64,000 nt of DNA. Origin: Oceanicoccus sp. GTDB lineage: Bacteria > Pseudomonadota > Gammaproteobacteria > Pseudomonadales > Dasaniaceae. The notes beneath the pieces were generated by a model. It saw only the letters and a program-made list of their open reading frames with translations, did no database searches and was not told the origin of the DNA. How positions within the stretch are numbered: position 1 is the first letter of the stretch; each line of letters starts with the position of its first letter. Below are positions 523 through 13,393 of this stretch, in pieces. The stretch is from NCBI RefSeq assembly GCF_029238675.1, contig NZ_JAQWFR010000004.1:1-64000 (forward strand), written 5' to 3'. Both the position numbers and the translations under genes were made by a program.

Positions 523-2274
523 TTACGCATTATCATTGAATTGCAAAGCATGCAATTTTGCATAATGCCCGGATTGCGCTATTAATTCCTCATGCTTACC
601 CTGCTCAACTATTCGCCCCGCATCCATCACCACAATCCGATCAGCCTTTTCAATCGTCGACAACCGATGCGCAATCACAATCGTAGTCCTACCTTCCATC
701 ACCTTATCAAGCGCTTCCTGAATGGTACGCTCTGACTCCGTATCCAAAGCTGAAGTGGCCTCATCAAGAATAAGAATCGGGGCATCTTTTAATAAGGCCC
801 TGGCAATGGAAAGGCGCTGCCGCTGGCCGCCGGATAAACGGGTGCCATCTTCACCCACAATGGTTTGCAGTCCTTCGGGTAAGGTATTTATAAATTCCAT
901 GGCGTGGGCATCCGTGGCGGCTTTTTCGATGGCGCTGTGATCAACATCGGCCAATTGGCCATAGGCTATATTGGCGGCAACGGTATCGTTAAATAACACT
1001 ACCTGCTGGTTAACCAAAGCAACCTGTCTGCGTAAGCAATCGATGTCCAAATCACGCAGGGCTATATCGTCTAATAAGATATCACCGCTGCCAAGCTCAT
1101 AGAAACGTAATAACAAACTGGCCAAGGTGGTTTTACCACTGCCAGAACGGCCAACCAATGCCACGGTTTCGCCGGGCTCAATGGTCAGGTTGATATTATC
1201 GAGTACCGGCTTACCGGCTTCATATTCAAAGTTGATATTGCGCAGCTCAATTCGGCCGCTGACTCGCTCCACCACTTGTGAGCCACTATTGTGCTCCTGC
1301 TGTTCATCCAGCAAACCAAAAATAGAATCTGCCGCTGCTATACCGCGCTGAATGGTGGAGTTGATCTCACTTAGTTGTCTTACCGGCTTGGCTAACAAGC
1401 CCGCCGCAACCACATAAGCCACTAACTCCCCCGCTGAGGTATCGGCAGCCATCAGCAGGACGATATACATCAAGGCGGCTATAGCCAGCGATAATAAAAA
1501 GGTGAATACCGGCGTTTGGACAGAGGCAATACGGCTGAATTTTATACCCTGGAGGGTATTGCTGTTGCTGGCAGTGTGGAAGCGCTGCTTCTCATAGCCC
1601 TCACCACCGTAACTGCGCACGAGCCGATAACCCTGAATAGCTTCGTTAGAGATATGAGTCACCCGCCCCATGGACGATTGCATCTTTTCACTCATACGGC
1701 GGAATAGTTTACTGGTATAGACAATCAGGCCAGCAAGCACCGGCGTTACCAGTATAAAGATCAGCGTTAGTTCCCAGTTTTGATATAGCAAATATCCCAA
1801 TAGGGCGATAACAGTAAGCCCTTCCCTAAATAACACCTTGATGGCATTAGTCGCGGCATTAGTCACCTGATTCACGTTGTAGGTGATCATCGATACCAGT
1901 TCGCCGGAGTTACATTGGTCATGGAAGGCGCTGGGCAGCACCAGCATATGGTCAAACATCTGCTTGCGCAGATCATTCACTACACTCAGGGAGATTTTCG
2001 ACATAAAGTAGTTGCCGCAGAAAAAGCCAATACCGCGCACAATACTGATAGCCACAACAGCCAGGGGGATAAAGGTGACCAGGTCGGCATCTTTGCTCTC
2101 TAGCCCATCAACGAAGTACTTCATCATATGGGCCAATGCACTCTGGGTACTGGCATAGGCGGCAAAACCCAACAAACTAATCACAAAATAGGGCCAATAG
2201 CGGGCGCTATAGCCTAATAACCGGCGGTAGATTGACCAGCCATCAGCGGTTTGTGTGGATGAAGGTTTAGCCAT
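523..2274 (-). CDS. msbA: Lipid A export ABC transporter MsbA (permease-ATPase half-transporter)
   Basis: Homodimeric ABC exporter of the inner membrane that flips lipid A-core from the inner to the outer leaflet using ATP. The 583-residue length is that of MsbA. Residues about 20-310 form the six-helix ABC exporter domain. The nucleotide-binding domain follows from about 340, with Walker A GRSGSGKTT near 375, signature LSGGQRQR near 480 and Walker B ILILDEATSALD near 500, then the switch His in IAHRLST. It lies in an LPS-core locus, which fits this role better than a drug exporter. No lpxK follows it, unlike in E. coli. The ATG at 2274 has only a weak ribosome-binding site. Confidence 0.92.
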   Translation of the reverse strand: MAKPSSTQTADGWSIYRRLLGYSARYWPYFVISLLGFAAYASTQSALAHMMKYFVDGLESKDADLVTFIPLAVVAISIVRGIGFFCGNYFMSKISLSVVNDLRKQMFDHMLVLPSAFHDQCNSGELVSMITYNVNQVTNAATNAIKVLFREGLTVIALLGYLLYQNWELTLIFILVTPVLAGLIVYTSKLFRRMSEKMQSSMGRVTHISNEAIQGYRLVRSYGGEGYEKQRFHTASNSNTLQGIKFSRIASVQTPVFTFLLSLAIAALMYIVLLMAADTSAGELVAYVVAAGLLAKPVRQLSEINSTIQRGIAAADSIFGLLDEQQEHNSGSQVVERVSGRIELRNINFEYEAGKPVLDNINLTIEPGETVALVGRSGSGKTTLASLLLRFYELGSGDILLDDIALRDLDIDCLRRQVALVNQQVVLFNDTVAANIAYGQLADVDHSAIEKAATDAHAMEFINTLPEGLQTIVGEDGTRLSGGQRQRLSIARALLKDAPILILDEATSALDTESERTIQEALDKVMEGRTTIVIAHRLSTIEKADRIVVMDAGRIVEQGKHEELIAQSGHYAKLHALQFNDNA

Positions 2275-2474: not shown

Positions 2475-3527
2475 ATGAGCCGACCACCGCTACAACCATT
2501 TTCCAACTTGCTAGTGGTTATGACTGACCGCCATATCGGTAATTTGTTAGTCAGTCTATATGCCATTAAAGCCGCGCAACAACAATTATCTAACGAGCAA
2601 ACCCTTAGCTGCGTTATTGATTACCATCTGCTATCGCTGGCCACATATTTTTTACCTGATATTGAATTTATTCCCTGCAACTTGCGCGGCTCCAAACTTT
2701 CTATATGGCAAAAGTCCAAGCTGTTTATCAAACTGTATACTCGACTAAAACAACTCAAGATAGATACTGCTGTGGATTTATATGGTCATGGCGAATCCCT
2801 TAAAATTGCCCAGCTTTCAGGTGCCAACTATATTTCTGCTTTCTATAGTCGACCGAAATTGAAAGAGAAATATGATTGGTGTGATAGAGACAGTGATTTA
2901 ACCGCCAACCACCAAATAGATTTTTACCGGTATCCATTTTATCCGCTCTTTGGTGAGCTTACGCATGTAAAACTCAATGCACCAAAGCTCGACAATGTTT
3001 ACTCAGGGCTGCGAACAAAGCTGAACGCATTAGCTGTTGATCAAAACAGGCCTCTGGTGGTTATTCATCCCGGTGCTGGTAAAACATATAAATTATGGCC
3101 TACTCATCACTGGCAAAAACTGATTGCCATGCTGGAGCAAGATAACAAACAGGTGTTATTGATTGGCGCCGGGGTTGATAAGCCTGAAGTGGAAGCGATT
3201 ATTAAGGATACGTCGATTGCCCCCATCAATGGCTTTGGGCAATTTAACCTAATTGAAACTATTCACCTGGGGTTTATCTGTGAGTCGATGATTGGTAATG
3301 ACTCTGGGCCCACTCACCTAATGGCAACAACACCAACTTACGTCTATAGCCTATTTGGACCTACTGACGATACGCTATGGTCACCGCTGTCGGACAATAG
3401 CCACATTCTTCGCTCAGAAACTCCCTGCCTTGAAGCCTGTAGTAAACAAAGCTGTGCCAGAACCCAAAGCTGCTTACAGTTGCTTTCTGCAAACACTGTG
3501 TACCAGCAATCACAGACCCAGGCTTAG
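2475..3527 (+). CDS. GT9-family glycosyltransferase (ADP-heptosyltransferase-like)
   Basis: About 350 residues with the C-terminal hallmarks of glycosyltransferase family 9: VVIHPGAGKTYKLWP followed by MIGNDSGPTHLMA, the sugar-nucleotide-binding loops of heptosyltransferases. The N-terminal VVMTDRHIGNLLVSL resembles the family's opening GDxxLxxP region, but diverged. It probably adds a heptose or related sugar to the LPS core at the cytoplasmic face. It is divergent from msbA and convergent with the next gene, overlapping its 3' end by 4 bp. The frame is open from a TTG at 2463, but the ATG at 2475 was chosen as start; neither has a clear Shine-Dalgarno sequence. The acceptor is unknown, and a WaaC or WaaQ-like role is possible. 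Confidence 0.75.
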   Translation: MSRPPLQPFSNLLVVMTDRHIGNLLVSLYAIKAAQQQLSNEQTLSCVIDYHLLSLATYFLPDIEFIPCNLRGSKLSIWQKSKLFIKLYTRLKQLKIDTAVDLYGHGESLKIAQLSGANYISAFYSRPKLKEKYDWCDRDSDLTANHQIDFYRYPFYPLFGELTHVKLNAPKLDNVYSGLRTKLNALAVDQNRPLVVIHPGAGKTYKLWPTHHWQKLIAMLEQDNKQVLLIGAGVDKPEVEAIIKDTSIAPINGFGQFNLIETIHLGFICESMIGNDSGPTHLMATTPTYVYSLFGPTDDTLWSPLSDNSHILRSETPCLEACSKQSCARTQSCLQLLSANTVYQQSQTQA

Positions 3528-5035
3528 CCTTGCTCCATTAGGCAATGCTCGTTTTTGGCAACATAGACACTAATTGTCCGGCGACGATGTTTAACGTAAT
3601 AGGCCAGGCAGTTTTTTCCAGAAACCACTACCTGCTCATCTGAACGGCCATAATAAACAACGGCAACATCAGGCTTTAAGCCTGATTCCAGCACCTTTAA
3701 TACTTTTGTTGGTTCGGCCTTGAGTGTACGTGCTTTCTTATAATCCACACGGTTAACCAGCGATACTTGCAAAGCGTTAGAATAAACAGCAGGGCCTGAC
3801 AGGCCCATAGCTTCAACTTTACTTTGCGCCTCATTTAAGAAGCGTTTGCTTCCCGAGGGAGCATCCAGCACTTTAAACAGGGGCACAATGATAATAAGTG
3901 TCAGTAATATTTTTGAAAACCGCGCCTGCCTGGCGGCGGCAGACAAGATTAATATGATCGATAAGGCGGTTAGAAAATAGGTTAACGGAAGGTTATATCT
4001 AAAAACTAAAAACCCTCGGCTAAATAAAAATACCAAACAATAAACAACGATTGATAAGGCGTAAACCGAGAGTAAGATAGTGGCATTATTTTTCTGTTTC
4101 CGCTGAAAGTAAAAAAGCCCCAGCAGATATACCGACAACGAGCTGGAAAGATAGAAAAAATAGGTGCCTATATAGAGGCTAAACAAGCCAACGCCACTAT
4201 GTCCAGCCCAGTATTTGGATAATAACTCCGCCTCCAGAATTTCTTGCCCCTGTGAAAAGGTGACAAAAACACTGGGAATTTTACCGCTAACATACTTCCA
4301 GGCATCTGCCTGGGGCATATCAATAGCAAGCAGACCAATAGCCGCCGCCAACAATAGTACAACCCCTGCCAACAAGCCCAATAGGTACTGACGAGTTAAA
4401 TAAATAACCGCCAGGAAACCAAAAGCCAATATAACCAAAGCCTCAATACGAAATAACGCTGCAATCACAAAAGATAGAACAAACAAAATCAATGACTTTT
4501 TATCACGGCTGGATGTTAGCCTGTCGGTGTTAATGCAAATAAGGCTGTAATAAACACCGATCATAATAAAGAGAATAAAGCCCTGGTCTCGCATTAAGTA
4601 GTTACGAAAATTGTGGAAGCTTATTGAAATAATAAATAATACGACGGCCCAAAATAGACGTGACTGGTGCACACGCAATGCACTGCAAATGCGATAAAAA
4701 AAGTAGATTTGGCCACACTGAAAAACAAAATTAAGCACCCAGCCACTGACCAGTAAATTATTGAAAAAAGCCATATCGACATAGGCAACAAGCACGGAGT
4801 AATAGGCCCATGGGTAGGTTTTAAGCGCCTCGGCCAGGCCATGGTCGATAAAGTTTCTAGCGGCATAGAGGTACAGGGCGCCATCGTCGTTCACCGCCCA
4901 GCCGTATTGCCATAGACGAAGTAGAAAGGTAATGACTAATAACGACAGAAAAAAAGTAACCAGACGGCCACGGGATTCCAACATATAGCTGGTAAAAGCT
5001 CTTAACCCGGTAACAATACTATCCTGCATTGACAT
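3524..5035 (-). CDS. Polytopic membrane protein, GT-C/GT39-like glycosyltransferase candidate
   Basis: A 503-residue protein with roughly ten to twelve hydrophobic segments. An acidic NDD motif at residues 49-51 follows the first membrane segment, in the first periplasmic loop. That layout is typical of GT-C enzymes such as ArnT and protein O-mannosyltransferases, which use polyprenyl-phosphate sugars. The C-terminal soluble tail (about 400-503) has several Lys/Arg and two Cys. I infer a lipid-linked sugar transferase acting on LPS or another surface glycan, because of the neighbouring LPS genes. The ATG at 5035 is preceded by GAGAAT. The exact substrate and family are not recognisable by eye, and a non-enzymatic membrane protein cannot be excluded. 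Confidence 0.55.
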   Translation of the reverse strand: MSMQDSIVTGLRAFTSYMLESRGRLVTFFLSLLVITFLLRLWQYGWAVNDDGALYLYAARNFIDHGLAEALKTYPWAYYSVLVAYVDMAFFNNLLVSGWVLNFVFQCGQIYFFYRICSALRVHQSRLFWAVVLFIISISFHNFRNYLMRDQGFILFIMIGVYYSLICINTDRLTSSRDKKSLILFVLSFVIAALFRIEALVILAFGFLAVIYLTRQYLLGLLAGVVLLLAAAIGLLAIDMPQADAWKYVSGKIPSVFVTFSQGQEILEAELLSKYWAGHSGVGLFSLYIGTYFFYLSSSLSVYLLGLFYFQRKQKNNATILLSVYALSIVVYCLVFLFSRGFLVFRYNLPLTYFLTALSIILILSAAARQARFSKILLTLIIIVPLFKVLDAPSGSKRFLNEAQSKVEAMGLSGPAVYSNALQVSLVNRVDYKKARTLKAEPTKVLKVLESGLKPDVAVVYYGRSDEQVVVSGKNCLAYYVKHRRRTISVYVAKNEHCLMEQG

Positions 5036-5284: not shown

Positions 5285-6838
5285 ATGTTATTTAATTCTT
5301 TCGAGTTTATCCTGCTGTATCTACCCCTGGTGGTACTGGGCTATTACCTGCTGCGCAGGCTATCGACGGGGTCTACTCCAACACTTTCTCCAACACTTTA
5401 TCTGGTGATTGCTTCACTGGGCTTTTATGGCTGGTGGAAACTTGAGTATGTCGCTCTGCTGCTTGCCTCCATCTTGCTGAATTATGGCCTGAGCCTAATG
5501 CTATTGCGAGCAGGCCCCGGGGGCTATAAAAAACTCGTGCTGGGCCTTGGGGTAGCGGCCAACCTGCTGACATTGATGTATTTTAAGTATGCGGACTTTA
5601 TTATTGAAAGCATTAACCTGATGCTCGACAGCCAAAGCCCATCGCTGTCTATTATCTTGCCATTGGCTATTTCCTTTTACACCTTTCAGCAAATCGCTTA
5701 CCTGGTTGATAGTTACCAGGGGAAAACCCATGCCCATGGGTTTCTCGATTACTGTTTGTTTGTCTGTTTTTTCCCTCAACTTATTGCTGGCCCGATTGTT
5801 CACTACAGCGAAATGCTGCCGCAATTTGCCCGGCAGAGGAAAACCCTCTTCAACCCATCAAATATCTCGGTAGGCTTAATTCTATTTACTCTGGGCCTGG
5901 CAAAGAAGGTATTGATTGCCGACAATATGGCGCCCTACTCCACCGCCATTTTTGCCAAGGCAGACGCGGGCCAAACCATAACGCTACTGGAGGCATGGCA
6001 GGGCGCCCTGGCTTACAGCTTACAACTGTATTTTGACTTTAGTGGCTACTGCGATATGGCGATGGGCGCCGCCAGAATGTTTGGTATTGTGCTGCCTATT
6101 AATTTTAATTCGCCTTATAAGGCCAAAAATATTATCGATTTCTGGCGTCGCTGGCATATGACACTGTCACGGTTTTTAAGAGACTATTTATATATCGCCC
6201 TTGGAGGTAACCGCAAGGGTCAAAGCCGCCGCTATATCAATCTGTTTATTACCATGTTGCTGGGTGGGCTCTGGCACGGAGCCGGCTGGAATTTTGTTAT
6301 CTGGGGAGCCTTGCATGGCAGTTATCTTATTATCAACCACGCTTGGCATGCTGTGCACAGGGGCCTGCCAGCCCTACCCCGGTCAGTCAATTGGCTGGGT
6401 AGCAAGCTAGGGGTTGCTATTACATTATTAGCCATTATTGTAGGCTGGGTGTTCTTTAGAGCCGAAACCTATTCAGGGGCCATGAAAATGCTGGCGGGAA
6501 TGTTTGGCCAAAACGGCATTGCCATACCGATAAAATATGCCGAGCGTTGGGGCTCATTCAGTGACAACTTAATCAGTGCCGGTGTTGAATTCCGTTATCT
6601 GGATGGCTTTAGCTCTATCTCACCACTGTATACCATTCTATTATTATGGGTCTTTGCCCGCTATGCACCCAATAGCTTTAGTTTACTACGGGCCTATAAG
6701 CCTGCTTTAGGCACGATTGATGCTTCCCGTTTTGAAATTAAGCTGACTAAAACAAATGCTGTTTTAGTTGGGCTGCTTTTTATCATCGCAACGGTATCAC
6801 TCAATACTGTTTCTGAATTCCTTTACTTTCAATTTTAG
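5285..6838 (+). CDS. MBOAT-family membrane-bound O-acyltransferase (AlgI-like)
   Basis: A 517-residue protein opening with MLFNSFEFILLYLPLVV, the usual start of the AlgI/PatA branch of MBOAT enzymes. The conserved active-site His lies in GGLWHGAGWNF near residue 330, and the upstream RRWHMTLSRFLRDYLY motif is also characteristic. These multi-pass proteins pass acyl groups, usually acetyl, across the inner membrane toward periplasmic glycans. An AAGG ribosome-binding site lies 6 bases before the ATG. The next gene follows within 7 bp and encodes an SGNH-like partner, which matches known MBOAT/SGNH acylation pairs. No alginate genes are present, so an alginate role is not supported; the target may be LPS or another local glycan. 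Confidence 0.88.
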   Translation: MLFNSFEFILLYLPLVVLGYYLLRRLSTGSTPTLSPTLYLVIASLGFYGWWKLEYVALLLASILLNYGLSLMLLRAGPGGYKKLVLGLGVAANLLTLMYFKYADFIIESINLMLDSQSPSLSIILPLAISFYTFQQIAYLVDSYQGKTHAHGFLDYCLFVCFFPQLIAGPIVHYSEMLPQFARQRKTLFNPSNISVGLILFTLGLAKKVLIADNMAPYSTAIFAKADAGQTITLLEAWQGALAYSLQLYFDFSGYCDMAMGAARMFGIVLPINFNSPYKAKNIIDFWRRWHMTLSRFLRDYLYIALGGNRKGQSRRYINLFITMLLGGLWHGAGWNFVIWGALHGSYLIINHAWHAVHRGLPALPRSVNWLGSKLGVAITLLAIIVGWVFFRAETYSGAMKMLAGMFGQNGIAIPIKYAERWGSFSDNLISAGVEFRYLDGFSSISPLYTILLLWVFARYAPNSFSLLRAYKPALGTIDASRFEIKLTKTNAVLVGLLFIIATVSLNTVSEFLYFQF

Positions 6839-6845
6839 GATAACG

Positions 6846-7907
6846 ATGAATCAAGCAACTCCTCGCTATGCTGTCTTCTTTTTTATTACCGTCACGGTAG
6901 CGGCGCTATTGTTAATGGCTTTAAATTATACGATTGATCCCTGGATGTATTTCCGCGACAGCAAGTTTTCTATTGATACGGGACAGGGCCGGCATCAAAA
7001 TGCGGGTATCGGCAAGCATAAACAATTTTCAATATTGGTTATTGGCACATCACTCAGTCAAAATTTTTTAGCTACGGATGCTGAAAATAAATTCTCCGGC
7101 GAGGTGGCAGTACTATCCATACCCGCCGGCAGCGGTAAAGAGCAGAATCTTACCGTAGCCAATGCATTAAAATATCAAACACTGAGTCGAGTTATTTGGG
7201 AGCTACACCCAGCCGCTTTTGTACTGGATAAGGATGCGGTTAAAACCTCTTCATTCCCTGAATATTTATACGACAATAACCCCCTAACTGATGCCTATTA
7301 TCTTTACAATCTCACCAACCTGAAGAAAAGCCTATCAAGCCTGCAAGAGATTAGTGGTAAAAAAGATATCAAGCCCAGGAATTGGAAAAACCTATACGCT
7401 GCCAAAGACAATGAATATGGCTGCCCTTCTTTATTACATATGCAAATTAAGAAAGCGGGTATGCCGCAACAGGACAGTGACCTATTAGATACAAGTAATA
7501 ATATCGCTGACAACATCGAGGCCAATATCGTTTCTTTGGTTAATGCTCACCCCGATATACAATTTGATTTTTTCTTCCCGCCATTTTCAAAATTATATTG
7601 GGGCTTGATAAAAGAACATGAGCCGGTTAGGTATGCGTTGTATCTTCAAGTTGCCCAAACTGCGCAGGCCCTATTGGCAGGCAAAGAAAATACCAGACTC
7701 TATGATTTCAGGGCAAAAGAGGCGCTATCAGGTGATTTGAATAATTACCGCGATTTGACGCATTACTCTTCAGCGGCCAATAAACAGATTATTAGCGATA
7801 TTGCCAAAGGAGATTATCAAGCCACGGAGCAAGGCTTAGCCGCCTTTAACGCCTGGGTTAGTCAGTATGCTACCGATGATGTTGTTCAAAAATGCCTTAA
7901 AAAGTAA
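6846..7907 (+). CDS. SGNH-hydrolase-like membrane-anchored protein, likely partner of the MBOAT acyltransferase
   Basis: The protein is 353 residues from the ATG at 6846. That start has a TAGGAT ribosome-binding site and follows the MBOAT stop by 7 bp; the frame is also open upstream, inside the MBOAT gene. A single N-terminal membrane segment (about 10-30) is followed by a periplasmic domain. VIGTSLSQNF near residue 65 resembles the SGNH block with the nucleophilic Ser, and RDLTHYSS near 303 resembles the Asp-x-x-His pair near the C-terminus. Such proteins (AlgJ/AlgX, DltD and PatB types) complete acyl transfer begun by an MBOAT protein. The assignment rests on these motifs and the operon context; overall sequence similarity to a named family is not obvious. 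Confidence 0.6.
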   Translation: MNQATPRYAVFFFITVTVAALLLMALNYTIDPWMYFRDSKFSIDTGQGRHQNAGIGKHKQFSILVIGTSLSQNFLATDAENKFSGEVAVLSIPAGSGKEQNLTVANALKYQTLSRVIWELHPAAFVLDKDAVKTSSFPEYLYDNNPLTDAYYLYNLTNLKKSLSSLQEISGKKDIKPRNWKNLYAAKDNEYGCPSLLHMQIKKAGMPQQDSDLLDTSNNIADNIEANIVSLVNAHPDIQFDFFFPPFSKLYWGLIKEHEPVRYALYLQVAQTAQALLAGKENTRLYDFRAKEALSGDLNNYRDLTHYSSAANKQIISDIAKGDYQATEQGLAAFNAWVSQYATDDVVQKCLKK

Positions 7908-8700
7908 TAACAGATGGTTTGCGGCCGTATTTTTTGAGATGCTTTTTTTGAAAATCAGGGATGATTAAACGGATATCACTAGCCAATGTTTTTTTATCGA
8001 CTGCCGCCGTCTTATAATAGACCTCCATCAGGCCCGTTAAAAAAGACTGTTCAATACTGGCCTCTGAAAGTCCCACTAAAAGCCTCGCCAAATCCCTCGC
8101 CGGAGAATACTTTTTGGAAATCGCCCTGACACTATCTAAATCTACAAAATAGACTGATGCATTATCTATAAGCAGATTATGCAGTTTGGTATCTCCATGG
8201 ACATAACCAGCACTATGAACACGGGCTAGCTGCTGGGCAACTTGCGATAAAACATGGCTTAGTTCCTGATCATCTGCTGTGGCAACAAAATCATATAATG
8301 TTTGGGCATCTTCAAGATACTCACTGAAATGCACTGACTCGCGGGCTAGCAAACCGGTTTTCTTGATCACATAACCCATTGACTGTGGCGCTGTAGCACC
8401 AGCGGCGATAAATAGATTAACTTTGTCATGGCTTTGTTGTGCCCTGTTACCTTTGAACACAGCCCTAAGCATGGCTGCAATACCAGAATCACGGTAGGAT
8501 TTACAAAAAAGTGTTTGCTGATTCAATAGTGTTGCGCTAAAAATACTGCGGGAAGGCTCTTCTTTGATCACGCTTATTGCGCTAAATAAATCCGGGATAC
8601 TCGCTAAGCTCTCGTCGATGTCCAGGCCTGAATTTTTTTTAATCAGGCCGGTAGTGCCATCACTTGAGATCGGGTAAAAATCACGGCGATCAGTACTCAT
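7897..8700 (-). CDS. Small protein kinase-fold enzyme, LPS kinase (WaaP/Kdo kinase)-like
   Basis: A roughly 267-residue protein with the kinase catalytic loop HGDTKLHN (residues 168-175) and a DLD metal-binding motif (187-189) in YFVDLDSVR. This pattern occurs in the RIO/WaaP/KdkA group of small kinases. It probably phosphorylates a sugar in the LPS core, since it ends a minus-strand run of LPS genes after waaP and a sulfotransferase. The ATG at 8700 was chosen. A TTG at 8721 would place the start 6 bp after the upstream stop, but its AAGG is too close to work well. The 3' end overlaps the convergent SGNH-like gene by 11 bp. A protein-kinase role is a weaker alternative. Confidence 0.65.
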   Translation of the reverse strand: MSTDRRDFYPISSDGTTGLIKKNSGLDIDESLASIPDLFSAISVIKEEPSRSIFSATLLNQQTLFCKSYRDSGIAAMLRAVFKGNRAQQSHDKVNLFIAAGATAPQSMGYVIKKTGLLARESVHFSEYLEDAQTLYDFVATADDQELSHVLSQVAQQLARVHSAGYVHGDTKLHNLLIDNASVYFVDLDSVRAISKKYSPARDLARLLVGLSEASIEQSFLTGLMEVYYKTAAVDKKTLASDIRLIIPDFQKKHLKKYGRKPSVITF

Positions 8701-8726
8701 TGGATAATCCGCACAATGCAAACACC

Positions 8727-9470
8727 TTATAAGGATGATATTAAAGCGTCGATCTGTTCCTGGTAACCCAACAATGCGATATCTTTTTTATATCTCTCAG
8801 CCGCAACTTTGGCTGAACGCAATGTATAAGGTGAAGGTCGGTCAGATTTGGTTGACTTATTTTTATGAGGCAAGGCCGGCAGGTCATATTTTTTGGCGAG
8901 TACGGTCCAATCTTCGGCCATATTTTCAAACTTGCCTATATAGTCCACTACGACATTATCACCATCACAAAGAAAACTTGTCTGGGCGCGCAGGTGTCGA
9001 TCAATTTTTTCATCCGGTATTTCAGCCACCCGGTCTACAAACTCTTCGAATGTCATATCCAATGTAATACCCAGATTCCAGAATATATTTTTACTGCCTC
9101 CGGAGTTTCTGACATCTTGTATTTTATCGGTATAACTTGAGTGCAAACGATCGAGGGGATTTCTAACGAAGGCAAAAATAAATGGCGGTTTATCGGCCAC
9201 TAAAAACTGTTTGATGGTTTCATGGCTGGCATAGTTATTCGCATAATGGCGCACCAGTTGCGGGGTAACCTCTTCAATATCACCACCGGCCTGTGTTGCA
9301 TGTAAATGCCTGGCCAGGGTCAACTCAATAGAGGTTGAAGCCACTTTGGTAATTTTAATATAACCCAACTCCGGTGAAGGCAGGCGCCATATTTTAGGGC
9401 GGTGCCTGGCTACCTTGTAATTTCTTAACCATTTCTGGAAAAAGCCAGGATTAGGGCCGTAGTCTTTCAT
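8727..9470 (-). CDS. Sulfotransferase-family protein (PAPS-dependent carbohydrate sulfotransferase-like)
   Basis: A 247-residue protein with both cofactor motifs of the sulfotransferase superfamily. YIKITKVASTSIE (38-49 region) fits the 5'-phosphosulfate loop, with Lys42 as candidate catalytic residue. FAFVRNPLDRLHSSY (99-113) fits the 3'-phosphate-binding region. The layout resembles the Sulfotransfer_2 branch that acts on glycans. It sits between two kinase genes in a run of LPS-core genes, so the simplest inference is cytoplasmic sulfation of a core or lipid-linked sugar. There is no signal peptide or membrane segment. The ribosome-binding site before the ATG is weak, suggesting translation coupled to the operon. 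The acceptor cannot be deduced. Confidence 0.78.
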   Translation of the reverse strand: MKDYGPNPGFFQKWLRNYKVARHRPKIWRLPSPELGYIKITKVASTSIELTLARHLHATQAGGDIEEVTPQLVRHYANNYASHETIKQFLVADKPPFIFAFVRNPLDRLHSSYTDKIQDVRNSGGSKNIFWNLGITLDMTFEEFVDRVAEIPDEKIDRHLRAQTSFLCDGDNVVVDYIGKFENMAEDWTVLAKKYDLPALPHKNKSTKSDRPSPYTLRSAKVAAERYKKDIALLGYQEQIDALISSL

Positions 9471-9490
9471 AAATGTTTACTCAAATATGC

Positions 9491-10312
9491 TTAGATCAGT
9501 GTCGGAGTACGCTTAAAGTCTCTCCGATACAGTTTAACCGCACGACGCTCAACAGCACGTAAAAAGTCATGGTGCTGGCTGAATATATCCTTAAGCGGCA
9601 TTTGATAATAGGCTCGCAAAAACCGATAGACATCACCCCTTGTCAGGCCGATATCCAACGCTGAAAAATAAATACTACCTACATCTTTTACCCACCAACG
9701 CCTGGGCACTTGCTGGCGTATTTGTGCACGATGCAAGTCCACGATGAACAGACGGATTTTTTCCTTATCGGTAAAAGCTTCACCCGATGAGATATCTAAA
9801 AGAAAATGACAGATATAGAGGTCGCGATGGTTAATGCCATGGTTATGCATCGTGCTGGCAACTTCGGCAACTTTCTCAATGATGGCTTTTTTATGACTAA
9901 ACGCCGGAGGTTTTTCAGGCCATTGTTCAGCATATTGAGCCAGGCTTAAAGTGTCTGTCAGTTCTTCGGTAATAATAAATGACTGCTCTGCTGCCGGGTT
10001 ATAACCGCGTTTTCCATAGGCCACTGCGGTTAATGTATCCAGCCCTAGCTGGTGTAATTTTTTTATCGCCAACCATTCGTTGCTAGCGCCGGTAATCGGC
10101 AGCCTTAGTTGTAATAGGTTTTTTATGACTTCTTGCCAGCCAATACCCTCATGCAACTTCACGTAAAAACCTTCACCGTTGATCTTAAAGCACTGGGTGG
10201 TTCTTCCCTCTTTTGAACGGACTACCTTGCCTTTTATAGCTTTGATTTTTTCAAAAGGGTCTGCGTTACCCAGCCAATCTCGAATCACCTGTGAGTCAAT
10301 AATCAATGGCAT
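9491..10312 (-). CDS. waaP: LPS core heptose(I) kinase WaaP/RfaP
   Basis: Cytoplasmic kinase that adds phosphate to the first heptose of the LPS core, important for outer-membrane stability. The 273-residue protein follows the E. coli RfaP plan throughout: NADPFEKIKAIKGKVVR near the start, IKNLLQLRLPITGASNEW (63-80), the catalytic loop INHRDLYICHF (160-170) and VDLHRAQIR (191-199). The ATG at 10312 overlaps the waaG stop by 10 bp, indicating coupled translation. This is the conserved waaG-waaP order of Pseudomonas and relatives. Confidence 0.95.
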   Translation of the reverse strand: MPLIIDSQVIRDWLGNADPFEKIKAIKGKVVRSKEGRTTQCFKINGEGFYVKLHEGIGWQEVIKNLLQLRLPITGASNEWLAIKKLHQLGLDTLTAVAYGKRGYNPAAEQSFIITEELTDTLSLAQYAEQWPEKPPAFSHKKAIIEKVAEVASTMHNHGINHRDLYICHFLLDISSGEAFTDKEKIRLFIVDLHRAQIRQQVPRRWWVKDVGSIYFSALDIGLTRGDVYRFLRAYYQMPLKDIFSQHHDFLRAVERRAVKLYRRDFKRTPTLI

Positions 10313-11430
10313 CGCTTCACTCCAATAGCTTCGATTTTTTCTGCGATCCGTAACGGGCGTGAATAGATATCCGCTGACTGCGCAAAGTCAGCACACCGTG
10401 TACGCCAATCAACTGGATCTACCATTAACTTAGCTAATTGTTGATTCATTGTAGTTTGATTAAAGGGCTCAGGAGTTACTGCGCCCAGATTATTGTCTTC
10501 GATATAAAAAGCATAGCCACAGATACCACTACAAATAACGGGCAACCCAGCGACCACTGCTTCTAATAATACGTTGCCAGTATTTTCCAAGTAAGCCGGA
10601 TGCGCCAAACAGTTCGCTGCAAATAATAATTCAGGAACGTCATCACGTTGCCCAACAAACAGCACCCTATCACGAATGCCCAGCTTTGCCGCTAACGTCT
10701 CATAATCTTTGCTGCGCTTATCGCGGCCTATCACTAACACTTTTAAAGTGGCCTTCTGGTCCGCTGGAAGTGCTGCCGCCGCTTTTAACAAGCGGTCTAG
10801 TCCTTTTCTTTTATAATCTGAACCAAGAAAGGCAATCACTTTTTCTTCGGGTGCAATATCCAGCTCTTGTCGAATTCGCACTGCTTGCTGGTCACTCTCT
10901 GCGGTTCTCACTCGGGTCCGACTAATACCCGGGGGCATTAGATGCATGCGTACAAAGGGCGTTGAGTAGTAGCGATTAAACGCGTCGCCCTGGTCTGCTG
11001 ATAACAACAGAACTTCAGTCTTGGAATCTTTGGCGAATACAGCGCGCTCATAACGAATAGACCATCGGCTGCGAGGCGATAAGCGGTATAGCCAACTTTT
11101 GTCTTCAAAGGCTTTTGCCGCAAAACAAGTGTCGGCACAATAATAAATATCCAAACCCGGCATTTTATTAAAACCCACTACGATATCGGCGGGTTTTCTT
11201 TTCAGCTCCTGCTGTAATAGCTTATAAAAATGTTTGTTGTAACCATGATTGGTAACGCCCGAGGCTGCAAGCAAGGTCACTGATAAATTGGCCGGACACT
11301 CCCCCTCCCACTCACCGGTGTACACGGTAATATCATGGCCACGTTTTAACAGTTCTTCGCTAATAGCTAAAAAATTTCTCTGCAAACCACCATAGGGAAA
11401 ATATTTATACAGGCACAATGCAATCTTCAT
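10303..11430 (-). CDS. waaG: LPS core glucosyltransferase I WaaG (GT4)
   Basis: Retaining GT4 glycosyltransferase that adds the first hexose to heptose II of the LPS core, at the inner-membrane face. The 375-residue protein opens with KIALCLYKYFPYGGLQRNF, as in WaaG, and has VVGFNKMPGLDIYY in the N-terminal domain. The C-terminal domain has FLGSDYKRKGLDRLL and the E-x7-E motif in LENTGNVLLEAV, then GLPVICSGICGY. The ATG at 11430 overlaps the upstream acyltransferase stop in a TAATG arrangement, so it was preferred to a TTG two codons earlier. It overlaps waaP by 10 bp. Confidence 0.95.
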   Translation of the reverse strand: MKIALCLYKYFPYGGLQRNFLAISEELLKRGHDITVYTGEWEGECPANLSVTLLAASGVTNHGYNKHFYKLLQQELKRKPADIVVGFNKMPGLDIYYCADTCFAAKAFEDKSWLYRLSPRSRWSIRYERAVFAKDSKTEVLLLSADQGDAFNRYYSTPFVRMHLMPPGISRTRVRTAESDQQAVRIRQELDIAPEEKVIAFLGSDYKRKGLDRLLKAAAALPADQKATLKVLVIGRDKRSKDYETLAAKLGIRDRVLFVGQRDDVPELLFAANCLAHPAYLENTGNVLLEAVVAGLPVICSGICGYAFYIEDNNLGAVTPEPFNQTTMNQQLAKLMVDPVDWRTRCADFAQSADIYSRPLRIAEKIEAIGVKRCH

Positions 11431-12362
11431 TAGCAACCCGCCGCTTTATACAATTTTTGATTGCCATCGGGCTGGGTTTTAAAGCGCTTATGTACCCACA
11501 TATATTGCTCGGGCGCTTTACGAATGGCCTGTTCCAGCGTTTGATTAACTAACTCAGCATCGCGGGTTTCATCCCCTGAAGGAAACTCAGGCATCGCTGT
11601 TATTTCCATGGTGTAACCGGCATTATCTTTATTGCGATAATGGGCCAGCATCAAGATGGGTGAATTATTTAATCGCACCATTTTTGAGGTGGCTACAATG
11701 GTCGCTGCCGTCTGGCCAAAAAACGGTACAAAAACTGCACCCTTATTGCCAAAGTCCTGGTCTGGCGCATACCAGACACAGCGGTTTTTTCTAAGGTCGC
11801 GTAGTAGCTCGCGGAATTTTTTTCGGTCTACCACTTTGGTAAAGCGCGAGCGTTTTTTGCAAATCCAATAATCCATTAAGGCATTATTATGGGGGCGATA
11901 AACACAATCAAAGGGCTTGCCGTAAAAAGACAGTAATAAGCCGCCTAAATCTAAGGTACTAAAATGGCCGCCTAGTAGAATCACGCCCCGCTCTTGTTTC
12001 AACGCTTCTTCTAGCAGTTCGAAACCTACAAAGGTGGTTCGGTTTTCGATACTTTGCCGGTTGCCCCAATAGGCCCAGGCCGTTTCTATAAAACCGATAG
12101 CATTGGCTTTAAAAATATCTTTAACGAGTTTAGTTTGTTCGCTGGCTGTCAGTTCTTTAAAACAGAGGGCGATATTCACGTCTGTCACTCGTCGGCGTTT
12201 TGTCGCTAAGCGATATAGCAGTGAGCCTAATCCACTGCCCACTGCAAGGCCCGCCTTAAAAGGTAATAGCGCGATTAAACGCATCAACAATAAAAGCAGC
12301 CAGGTCGGCCAATAGCCGGGGGCTAGAAAATCTGACCACTGTGGGTCGAGTGGGCGACTCAT
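11430..12362 (-). CDS. Lipid A biosynthesis acyltransferase, LpxL/HtrB family
   Basis: A 310-residue inner-membrane acyltransferase of the LpxL/LpxM family, which transfers secondary acyl chains to Kdo-lipid A. It has the H-x4-D catalytic motif in GGHFSTLDLGG near residue 131, WYAPDQDFG as in LpxL, and the C-terminal YMWVHKRFKT block. One hydrophobic N-terminal segment follows APGYWPTWLL. The frame is open 18 codons further upstream, but the ATG at 12362 forms an ATGA overlap with the waaF stop and gives the family's usual length. In Pseudomonas this position between waaF and waaG holds waaC instead. Confidence 0.92.
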   Translation of the reverse strand: MSRPLDPQWSDFLAPGYWPTWLLLLLMRLIALLPFKAGLAVGSGLGSLLYRLATKRRRVTDVNIALCFKELTASEQTKLVKDIFKANAIGFIETAWAYWGNRQSIENRTTFVGFELLEEALKQERGVILLGGHFSTLDLGGLLLSFYGKPFDCVYRPHNNALMDYWICKKRSRFTKVVDRKKFRELLRDLRKNRCVWYAPDQDFGNKGAVFVPFFGQTAATIVATSKMVRLNNSPILMLAHYRNKDNAGYTMEITAMPEFPSGDETRDAELVNQTLEQAIRKAPEQYMWVHKRFKTQPDGNQKLYKAAGC

Positions 12363-13393
12363 AGCAATGTGTCCAATGCTGTAATCACACGCTGCGGCGA
12401 CAAGTCTTTTAAACAATGCATCTGCCTGTCTTTAAGTGGGCACTCCCGCTGGAAACAGGGGCCGCACTCCACCGCCATTTTTTCTACCGCGACATTGTCG
12501 CTCAGTGGCGGCGTAAAGTCCGGGGAGGTTGAGCCATAAACTACTACCATTGGCCGGGCTAAAGCGGCGGCAACATGCATAAGGCCGGAGTCATTACTGA
12601 CCACGGCGGAAGCGGCGGATAGTATATCAACGGCCTCGGCTAATTCGGTTTCTCCTGCTAAATTAATGCAGGCGTTTTTCTGCTTTTCAGGTAGCAATGC
12701 AATTATGGATTCGGTCACGTCTATATCATTGGCGGAACCAAACAGAGCCACCTGCCAGCCGCGATCAATAAAGGATTGCGCGACGGCGGCATAATGATTT
12801 TCTGGCCAGCGTTTTGCGGGGCCAAACTCTGCACCTGGACATAAGGCAATAAAGGGTTGCTGGTTAAAACCGTAGCGTTGCAGTAACCCGGCAACACGGG
12901 ATGAATCGACCACTAAGGACGGTCTTGGTAACTCATCGGGCAACGGTGTAAAGGGTTTATGGGCCAGGGCCACAAAACGTTGCACCATTAATGGGTAGTC
13001 AGATTTTTTTAGTAAGCGAATATCGTTTAACAAACCATAACGCATTTCACCCCGCCAACCGGTACGCTCTGGAATTTTTGCAAGCCAGGGGACTAGTGCT
13101 GATTTTAACGAGTTGGGTAATAGAATGGCTTGATCGTATTGCTCGGCTTGCAGGCTTGTGGCTAACTCAAAACGCACACTTAAATTGAGTTTGCCATGGC
13201 CTACCGGCATCGCTATTCCCTTGCGCACTTCTGGCATGCGCTCAAGAATGGCTAAGCTCCATGCTGGAGCCAGGACATCAATAGAACTATCTGGGTGTTG
13301 CTGTTTCAAGGCAATAAATAAAGATTGCGCCATTACCATATCGCCAACCCAGGACGGGCCAACGATAAGGATTTTTTTGGGGCTGGATGTCAT
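12359..13393 (-). CDS. waaF: ADP-heptose:LPS heptosyltransferase II WaaF
   Basis: GT9 enzyme that adds the second L-glycero-D-manno-heptose to the inner core. The 344 residues follow WaaF closely: ILIVGPSWVGDMVMAQSL at the start, VLAPAWSLAILERMPEV, LPNSLKSALVPWLA, RTGWRGEMRYGLLND, then the nucleotide-sugar loop LCPGAEFGPAKRWPENHY and VSNDSGLMHVAAAL. It starts 7 bp after the ilvE stop and overlaps the acyltransferase by 4 bp, so it belongs to the ilvE-waa transcription unit. Confidence 0.96.
   Translation of the reverse strand: MTSSPKKILIVGPSWVGDMVMAQSLFIALKQQHPDSSIDVLAPAWSLAILERMPEVRKGIAMPVGHGKLNLSVRFELATSLQAEQYDQAILLPNSLKSALVPWLAKIPERTGWRGEMRYGLLNDIRLLKKSDYPLMVQRFVALAHKPFTPLPDELPRPSLVVDSSRVAGLLQRYGFNQQPFIALCPGAEFGPAKRWPENHYAAVAQSFIDRGWQVALFGSANDIDVTESIIALLPEKQKNACINLAGETELAEAVDILSAASAVVSNDSGLMHVAAALARPMVVVYGSTSPDFTPPLSDNVAVEKMAVECGPCFQRECPLKDRQMHCLKDLSPQRVITALDTLL

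Follow-up and report, generated by a model that had tools for sequence, protein, structure and literature searches.

A predicted carbohydrate sulfotransferase among the lipopolysaccharide core kinase genes of Oceanicoccus

Judging from its genes, the bacterium Oceanicoccus sp. (assembly GCF_029238675.1, referred to as G000) probably modifies the core of its lipopolysaccharide (LPS) with both phosphate and sulfate. We analysed a 64,000-nucleotide stretch of this genome (the window; contig NZ_JAQWFR010000004.1, positions 1 to 64,000), in which the gene for a sulfotransferase (ST) lies between those for the LPS kinase WaaP and a second LPS-type kinase (KIN2). We consider it reasonably likely that ST is a soluble cytoplasmic carbohydrate O-sulfotransferase that depends on 3'-phosphoadenosine 5'-phosphosulfate (PAPS) and tailors the LPS core before its export by MsbA. 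The first-pass annotation had described a sulfotransferase sandwiched between WaaP and another kinase, behind waaG. Its coordinates for the three open reading frames (ORFs), all on the minus strand, were exact, and the order WaaP-ST-KIN2 behind waaF-lpxL-waaG was confirmed:

9491 to 10312, minus strand: WaaP/RfaP LPS heptose(I) kinase, 273 amino acids (aa) (Pfam, NCBIfam, solved-structure match, kinase alignment)
8727 to 9470, minus strand: ST, PF03567 sulfotransferase, 247 aa (ORF list, Pfam, homologue alignment)
7897 to 8721, minus strand: KIN2, second LPS-type kinase, PF06293, 274 aa (Pfam, kinase alignment)

ST matched Pfam family PF03567 (Sulfotransfer_2) with an E value of 3.2e-18 and 67.2 bits (gathering cut-off 22), and no other Pfam family matched at E≤0.01. 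PF03567 is a carbohydrate-type family; PF00685 was not matched. Both cofactor motifs seen in the first pass are present: among 27 aligned homologues K42 and R103 are invariant (27/27 each) and S111 occurs in 26/27. E182 is also invariant, and H83 is kept in 23 of the 27 rows. We take K42 to be the PAPS lysine of a 5'-phosphosulfate-binding (5'-PSB)-type motif and R103 with S111 to be the arginine and serine of a 3'-phosphate-binding (3'-PB)-type motif, as in heparan sulfate enzymes; H83 is presumably the base histidine, as in the heparan sulfate 2-O and 6-O enzymes. When a profile of the 27 rows was searched against solved structures, heparan sulfate 6-O and 2-O sulfotransferases ranked first, weakly (E 0.0017 and 0.0045), and a cytosolic SULT ranked behind them (E 0.18). 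In this weak match the region around H83 aligned with a histidine of the 6-O enzyme. A phmmer search of the solved structures with the single ST protein returned no match at E≤1. ST has in common with the heparan sulfate 2-O- and 6-O-sulfotransferases a cofactor lysine and an arginine-serine motif, and H83 is a candidate counterpart of their conserved histidine; unlike ST, the heparan sulfate enzymes are animal proteins that act on polymers. The ST sequence is without a hydrophobic N-terminus. ST is not a chance ORF, because its differences from two orthologues are distributed as in a coding gene under constraint, with second codon positions differing at 0.14 and 0.17 and third positions at 0.55 and 0.62. 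By codon position the constraint on ST is about as strict as that on WaaP and stricter than that on KIN2.

The minus-strand genes from waaF to KIN2 read as one operon, since their ORFs overlap or sit 5–20 bases apart. The waaG-type gene and waaP overlap by 10 bases, the intergenic gaps are 20 bases between WaaP and ST and 5 bases between ST and KIN2, and the other neighbouring ORFs overlap. A scan for promoters and terminators gave counts within those of shuffled sequence (8 versus a mean of 12.4; 10 versus a mean of 8.4). The remaining named genes for the core and lipid A in the locus are:

12359 to 13393, minus strand: WaaF heptosyltransferase II (Pfam and NCBIfam)
11430 to 12416, minus strand: LpxL-type lipid A acyltransferase (Pfam and NCBIfam)
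10303 to 11436, minus strand: WaaG/WapG-type glycosyltransferase of family GT4 (Pfam; named by its place and relatives)
523 to 2274, minus strand: MsbA flippase for lipid A-core, which acts in export once the core is assembled (Pfam and NCBIfam)

This arrangement corresponds to the Pseudomonas core locus, given in the gene table of PMC8005017 as waaF, waaC, wapG/waaG, waaP, wapP, wapQ, PA5006 ... msbA. The order in the window is glnE-ilvE-waaF-...-waaG-waaP-...-kinase-...-msbA, so that both loci have waaF and msbA at opposite ends, and WaaG is followed by WaaP and then by further kinases; by that table KIN2 occupies the place of wapP/wapQ. Unlike the Pseudomonas locus, that of the window has ST between WaaP and the next kinase and an LpxL-type gene in place of waaC, and the whole G000 assembly holds two PF06293 kinases. 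On this shared layout, ST stands directly after WaaP and ahead of the core kinase that comes next.

WaaP scored 357.3 bits against the NCBIfam RfaP/WaaP equivalog (cut-off 170) and matched the solved WaaP structure 6dfl at 1.3e-82, with the kinase lysine, HRD-type motif and aspartate all kept. KIN2 matched PF06293 (Kdo/WaaP kinases, Kdo being 3-deoxy-D-manno-octulosonic acid) at 6.5e-11 and 42.5 bits (cut-off 21.3), and its kinase-core lysine, HxD motif and aspartate do not vary across the 13 rows of an alignment with WaaP proteins. It fell below every NCBIfam LPS-kinase equivalog cut-off, the best being the Kdo kinase PRK01723 (39.5 versus 142 bits), and is accordingly filed only as a PF06293 kinase.

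The linkage of ST to WaaP recurs in other genomes: relatives 70, 67, 56 and 42% identical to ST adjoin WaaP and/or a KIN2-type kinase. Among ten genomes of the family, ST was matched at E≤0.001 in four, namely G000, G004 (70%), G008 (67%) and G009 (34%). The order WaaP-ST-KIN2 in G004 and G008 is that of the window, and G004 carries a second, unlike ST (24%) on the far side of KIN2. No WaaP was found within the 15-kb contig that holds the distant G009 protein. The tail of a KIN2 relative (37% over 60 aa, 1e-9) opens contig L009 (Porticoccaceae, ST 56%), just before ST; the remainder of the kinase side lies off the contig, and the linkage is by this tail only. In G140, from another family (ST 42%), WaaG, WaaP, a kinase-capsule-domain fusion and ST lie in a row.

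In three family genomes, G001, G002 and G007, WaaP is followed by a kinase and ST is missing, which makes ST optional. There the two kinase ORFs, as listed from their first start codons, overlap directly by 20, 77 and 28 bases, and by its gene order this arrangement is a natural empty site and ST an optional insert. We rejected the idea that ST replaces a kinase as a general rule on the PF06293 matches per genome: these number two in G000, four in G004 (a one-contig genome, in which two of the four lie close to the two contig ends) and six in G008, which carry both ST and WaaP, versus four, four and two in G001, G002 and G007. ST would hence be an addition and not a swap. Absence of ST from a genome of the same species (G005) was dropped as a claim, as its contigs break off within waaF and within the gene at 6768-7907, leaving the stretch between unassembled. 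G006, of the same genus and 98% complete, gave no WaaF, WaaP or PF06293 match and may be without the heptose core of its congeners.

To a sample of 390 genomes from the order we applied a five-row ST profile at E≤1e-15, built solely from WaaP- or kinase-linked sequences and thus favouring WaaP-linked matches; the top four matches of a single-protein search came from the same genomes as those of the profile. A related ST was found in 37 genomes. For the best match in each, about 10 kb on either side was searched with a WaaP profile, some stretches being much shorter (L079, 5.1 kb; L164, 4.7 kb), and WaaP was nearby in nine (G000, G004, G008, G140, G163, G242, G662, G747 and G243). If the chance of a gene lying so close to WaaP is taken as 0.5–1%, a value assumed from genome sizes and not measured, finding WaaP in 8 of the 36 other genomes has a probability of 1e-11 to 2e-9; counting lineages instead of genomes (4/36) gives 3e-5 to 5e-4. 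In a class-wide sample ST was matched in 21 of 369 genomes, and WaaP was present in 2 (G653 and G294) of the 12 stretches fetched out of the 20 matching genomes besides G000.

On a tree of 54 ST rows the WaaP-linked label, given also to the distant second ST of G004 and to L009 (kinase tail only), changes 6 times versus 11.9 in shuffles (none of 500 reached so low a count), at least 5 of the changes being required by well-supported branches. The window's ST falls in a clade with those of G004, G008 and L009 (support 100/98), which joins G653, G150 and G140 with weaker support (92/76); G150, within that wider group, is not WaaP-linked. The set from family f41 (G163, G242, G662 and G747; 100/98) is separated from the window's clade by well-supported branches. 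Because WaaP-linked proteins fall in separate branches, ST genes have, on this tree, entered WaaP loci more than once.

PAPS supply was also found in G000. On contig C1 a sulfate adenylyltransferase (397 bits, cut-off 323) adjoins an adenosine 5'-phosphosulfate (APS) kinase (281 bits, cut-off 163), and CysQ is over its cut-off. The first pass had suggested a search for PAPS-synthesis genes (cysND/cysC); the adenylyltransferase found is a one-subunit enzyme, sopT, and not cysND. A CysH-like protein on contig C27 stayed under the equivalog cut-offs. APS kinase was matched in 9/10 family genomes and so is not special to ST carriers, while CysQ is over cut-off in only 5/10 (G000, G004, G005, G006 and G008), a comparison of few genomes. 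The PAPS genes have a use in cysteine synthesis in any case; sulfation is possible with them, but they do not single out LPS as its target.

These elements suggest the following route. Sulfate adenylyltransferase and APS kinase, both encoded, would produce PAPS, and WaaF, WaaG and WaaP, whose genes are likewise present, would assemble the inner core at the cytoplasmic face and phosphorylate it. ST would hold PAPS through K42, R103 and S111 and, with H83 as the likely base, transfer sulfate to a core-sugar hydroxyl, while WaaP and KIN2 add phosphate. The acceptor would most likely be heptose or the sugar added by WaaG, with Kdo as another candidate; sequence cannot decide among these. CysQ would then clear 3'-phosphoadenosine 5'-phosphate (PAP), and MsbA would export a sulfated and phosphorylated core bearing additional fixed negative charge. 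According to PMC6147952, WaaP is a soluble cytoplasmic protein.

Sulfation of the core is favoured by the family and motifs of ST, the profile match leaning weakly towards heparan sulfate enzymes, and the tight operon with waaG, waaP and KIN2. Relatives in G004, G008, G140 and L009 keep the same neighbours, genes for PAPS synthesis and recycling are present, and another PF03567 branch has separately reached the WaaP loci of f41. Several observations weigh against it. An AlphaFold2 model of ST from three rows was too poor to judge its fold or active-site geometry by (mean pLDDT, the predicted local distance difference test score, 49.3); KIN2 resembles the named LPS kinases weakly. In 28 of the 37 order genomes with an ST relative no WaaP lies nearby, which indicates that the PF03567 family as a whole serves other glycans, although two of the 28 are still in core-type loci (G061 beside ilvE/glnE; G694 between msbA/lpxL and glnE). 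Finally, G000 combines a single PF03567 match over cut-off with five to PF13469, of which four lie in a polysaccharide-like cluster on contig C10.

The last two points would also fit an ST whose acceptor is some other glycan of the cell surface (O-antigen, capsule or exopolysaccharide), its place in the LPS locus being incidental. Marine bacteria with sulfated capsules or O-antigens are described in PMC11641403 and PMC3210612. We regard this reading as rather unlikely, because close relatives of ST stay beside core kinases across genera and families, and the named genes of the locus include waaF, lpxL, waaG, waaP and msbA, for core and lipid A, with no O-antigen or capsule polymerase recognized in it. 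The C10 cluster (L195, L196) combines several PF13469/PF00685 sulfotransferases with GT4 enzymes and a Wzy_C protein and is a second candidate for a sulfated glycan, so that a sulfated exopolysaccharide besides LPS is possible. Sulfated glycans of this bacterium therefore need not be LPS, and bulk sulfate assays could mislead.

That ST acts on a small molecule, a lipid or a protein seems improbable. Its substrate is not readable from sequence, and a bacterial tyrosine sulfotransferase, RaxST, exists (PMC4216712), but PF03567 as its sole Pfam family, the heparan sulfate enzymes as its nearest, if weak, profile matches and the operon context all argue otherwise. We hold it very improbable that ST, neutral or decaying, is only carried along in a variable LPS locus: its distribution is patchy, with no ST at the same place in G001, G002 and G007, and the G653 relative is short, its match passing through two stop codons, and possibly broken; the window's own ST, however, has intact motif residues and the constrained codon-position pattern given above.

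Three further genes were noted between KIN2 and msbA:

6768 to 7907, plus strand: 379-aa partner of the MBOAT protein, overlapping its gene (no Pfam match)
5285 to 6838, plus strand: MBOAT acyltransferase, PF03062, 4.3e-40 (Pfam)
3524 to 5035, minus strand: M503, a 503-aa polytopic membrane protein (Pfam-negative; neighbourhoods of relatives)

The MBOAT pair had initially been counted as part of the same module as ST, a view that our comparison does not support. It is on the plus strand and converges on KIN2, whose 3' end overlaps the end of the partner gene by 11 bases, and we therefore treat it as a separate converging unit. Nor is it co-inherited with ST: the matching locus of G004 has ST and no MBOAT relative in 20 kb, and G001 and G002 have an MBOAT relative near WaaP and no ST. 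M503 gave no Pfam match even at E≤1. Its relatives adjoin LPS kinase/sulfotransferase pairs in G004 (54%), in G294 (30%; waaF, M503 relative, PF06293 kinase and ST in a row) and, weakly, in f41 genomes, and, inspected by eye, it may be a so far unnamed core glycosyltransferase of type GT-C.

Fused kinases occur in some of the related loci. In G653 a 745-aa protein (L152:15851-18088) matches the RfaP/WaaP equivalog over its first third (339 bits), followed by further kinase-like stretches, and is apparently a fused LPS-core multi-kinase; a 708-aa open frame in G294 resembles it. The fusion in the WaaP locus of G140 (L072:9970-11991, 673 aa) joins a PF06293 kinase to a PF05159 capsule-synthesis domain.

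Sulfation of LPS by a sulfotransferase, as predicted here, has a precedent in LpsS of Sinorhizobium meliloti (Cronan and Keating 2004, cited in PMC5498481). LpsS belongs to another bacterial class, the available part of PMC5498481 states no link to a WaaP operon, and we liken it to ST by role, not sequence. The capsule clusters of marine Vibrio and Cobetia (PMC11641403 and PMC11766843) likewise place sulfotransferase genes in marine gammaproteobacterial glycan clusters; they carry their own PAPS genes, whereas ST sits in a core-kinase operon with the PAPS genes elsewhere. Sulfated O-antigen is known in Pseudoalteromonas (PMC3210612). Titles and abstract openings in the open-licence literature yielded no paper joining a sulfotransferase of a WaaP operon to the LPS core, and the available parts of PMC3526765, PMC4052302 and PMC7816849 held nothing on enzymatic sulfation of the core. 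The enzyme families and LPS sulfation are thus known; what is new is that sulfotransferases have repeatedly come to lie among core kinases, a combination that is little studied.

A more speculative reading, which we hold to be less likely than not, is that several gammaproteobacterial lineages have independently put PF03567 sulfotransferases in the WaaP locus, where paired kinases and sulfotransferases would set a mixed sulfate-phosphate code on the inner core. Sulfate, which seawater offers in abundance, would then provide some of the charge that in other bacteria comes from phosphate. Should core sulfation be real, LPS in this little-cultured group would bear a type of charge outside the standard picture of outer-membrane stability, in which divalent cations bridge phosphates, and phages, peptides and immune receptors could recognize it differently. 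A single gene in the WaaP operon would then offer a direct genetic handle on core sulfation.

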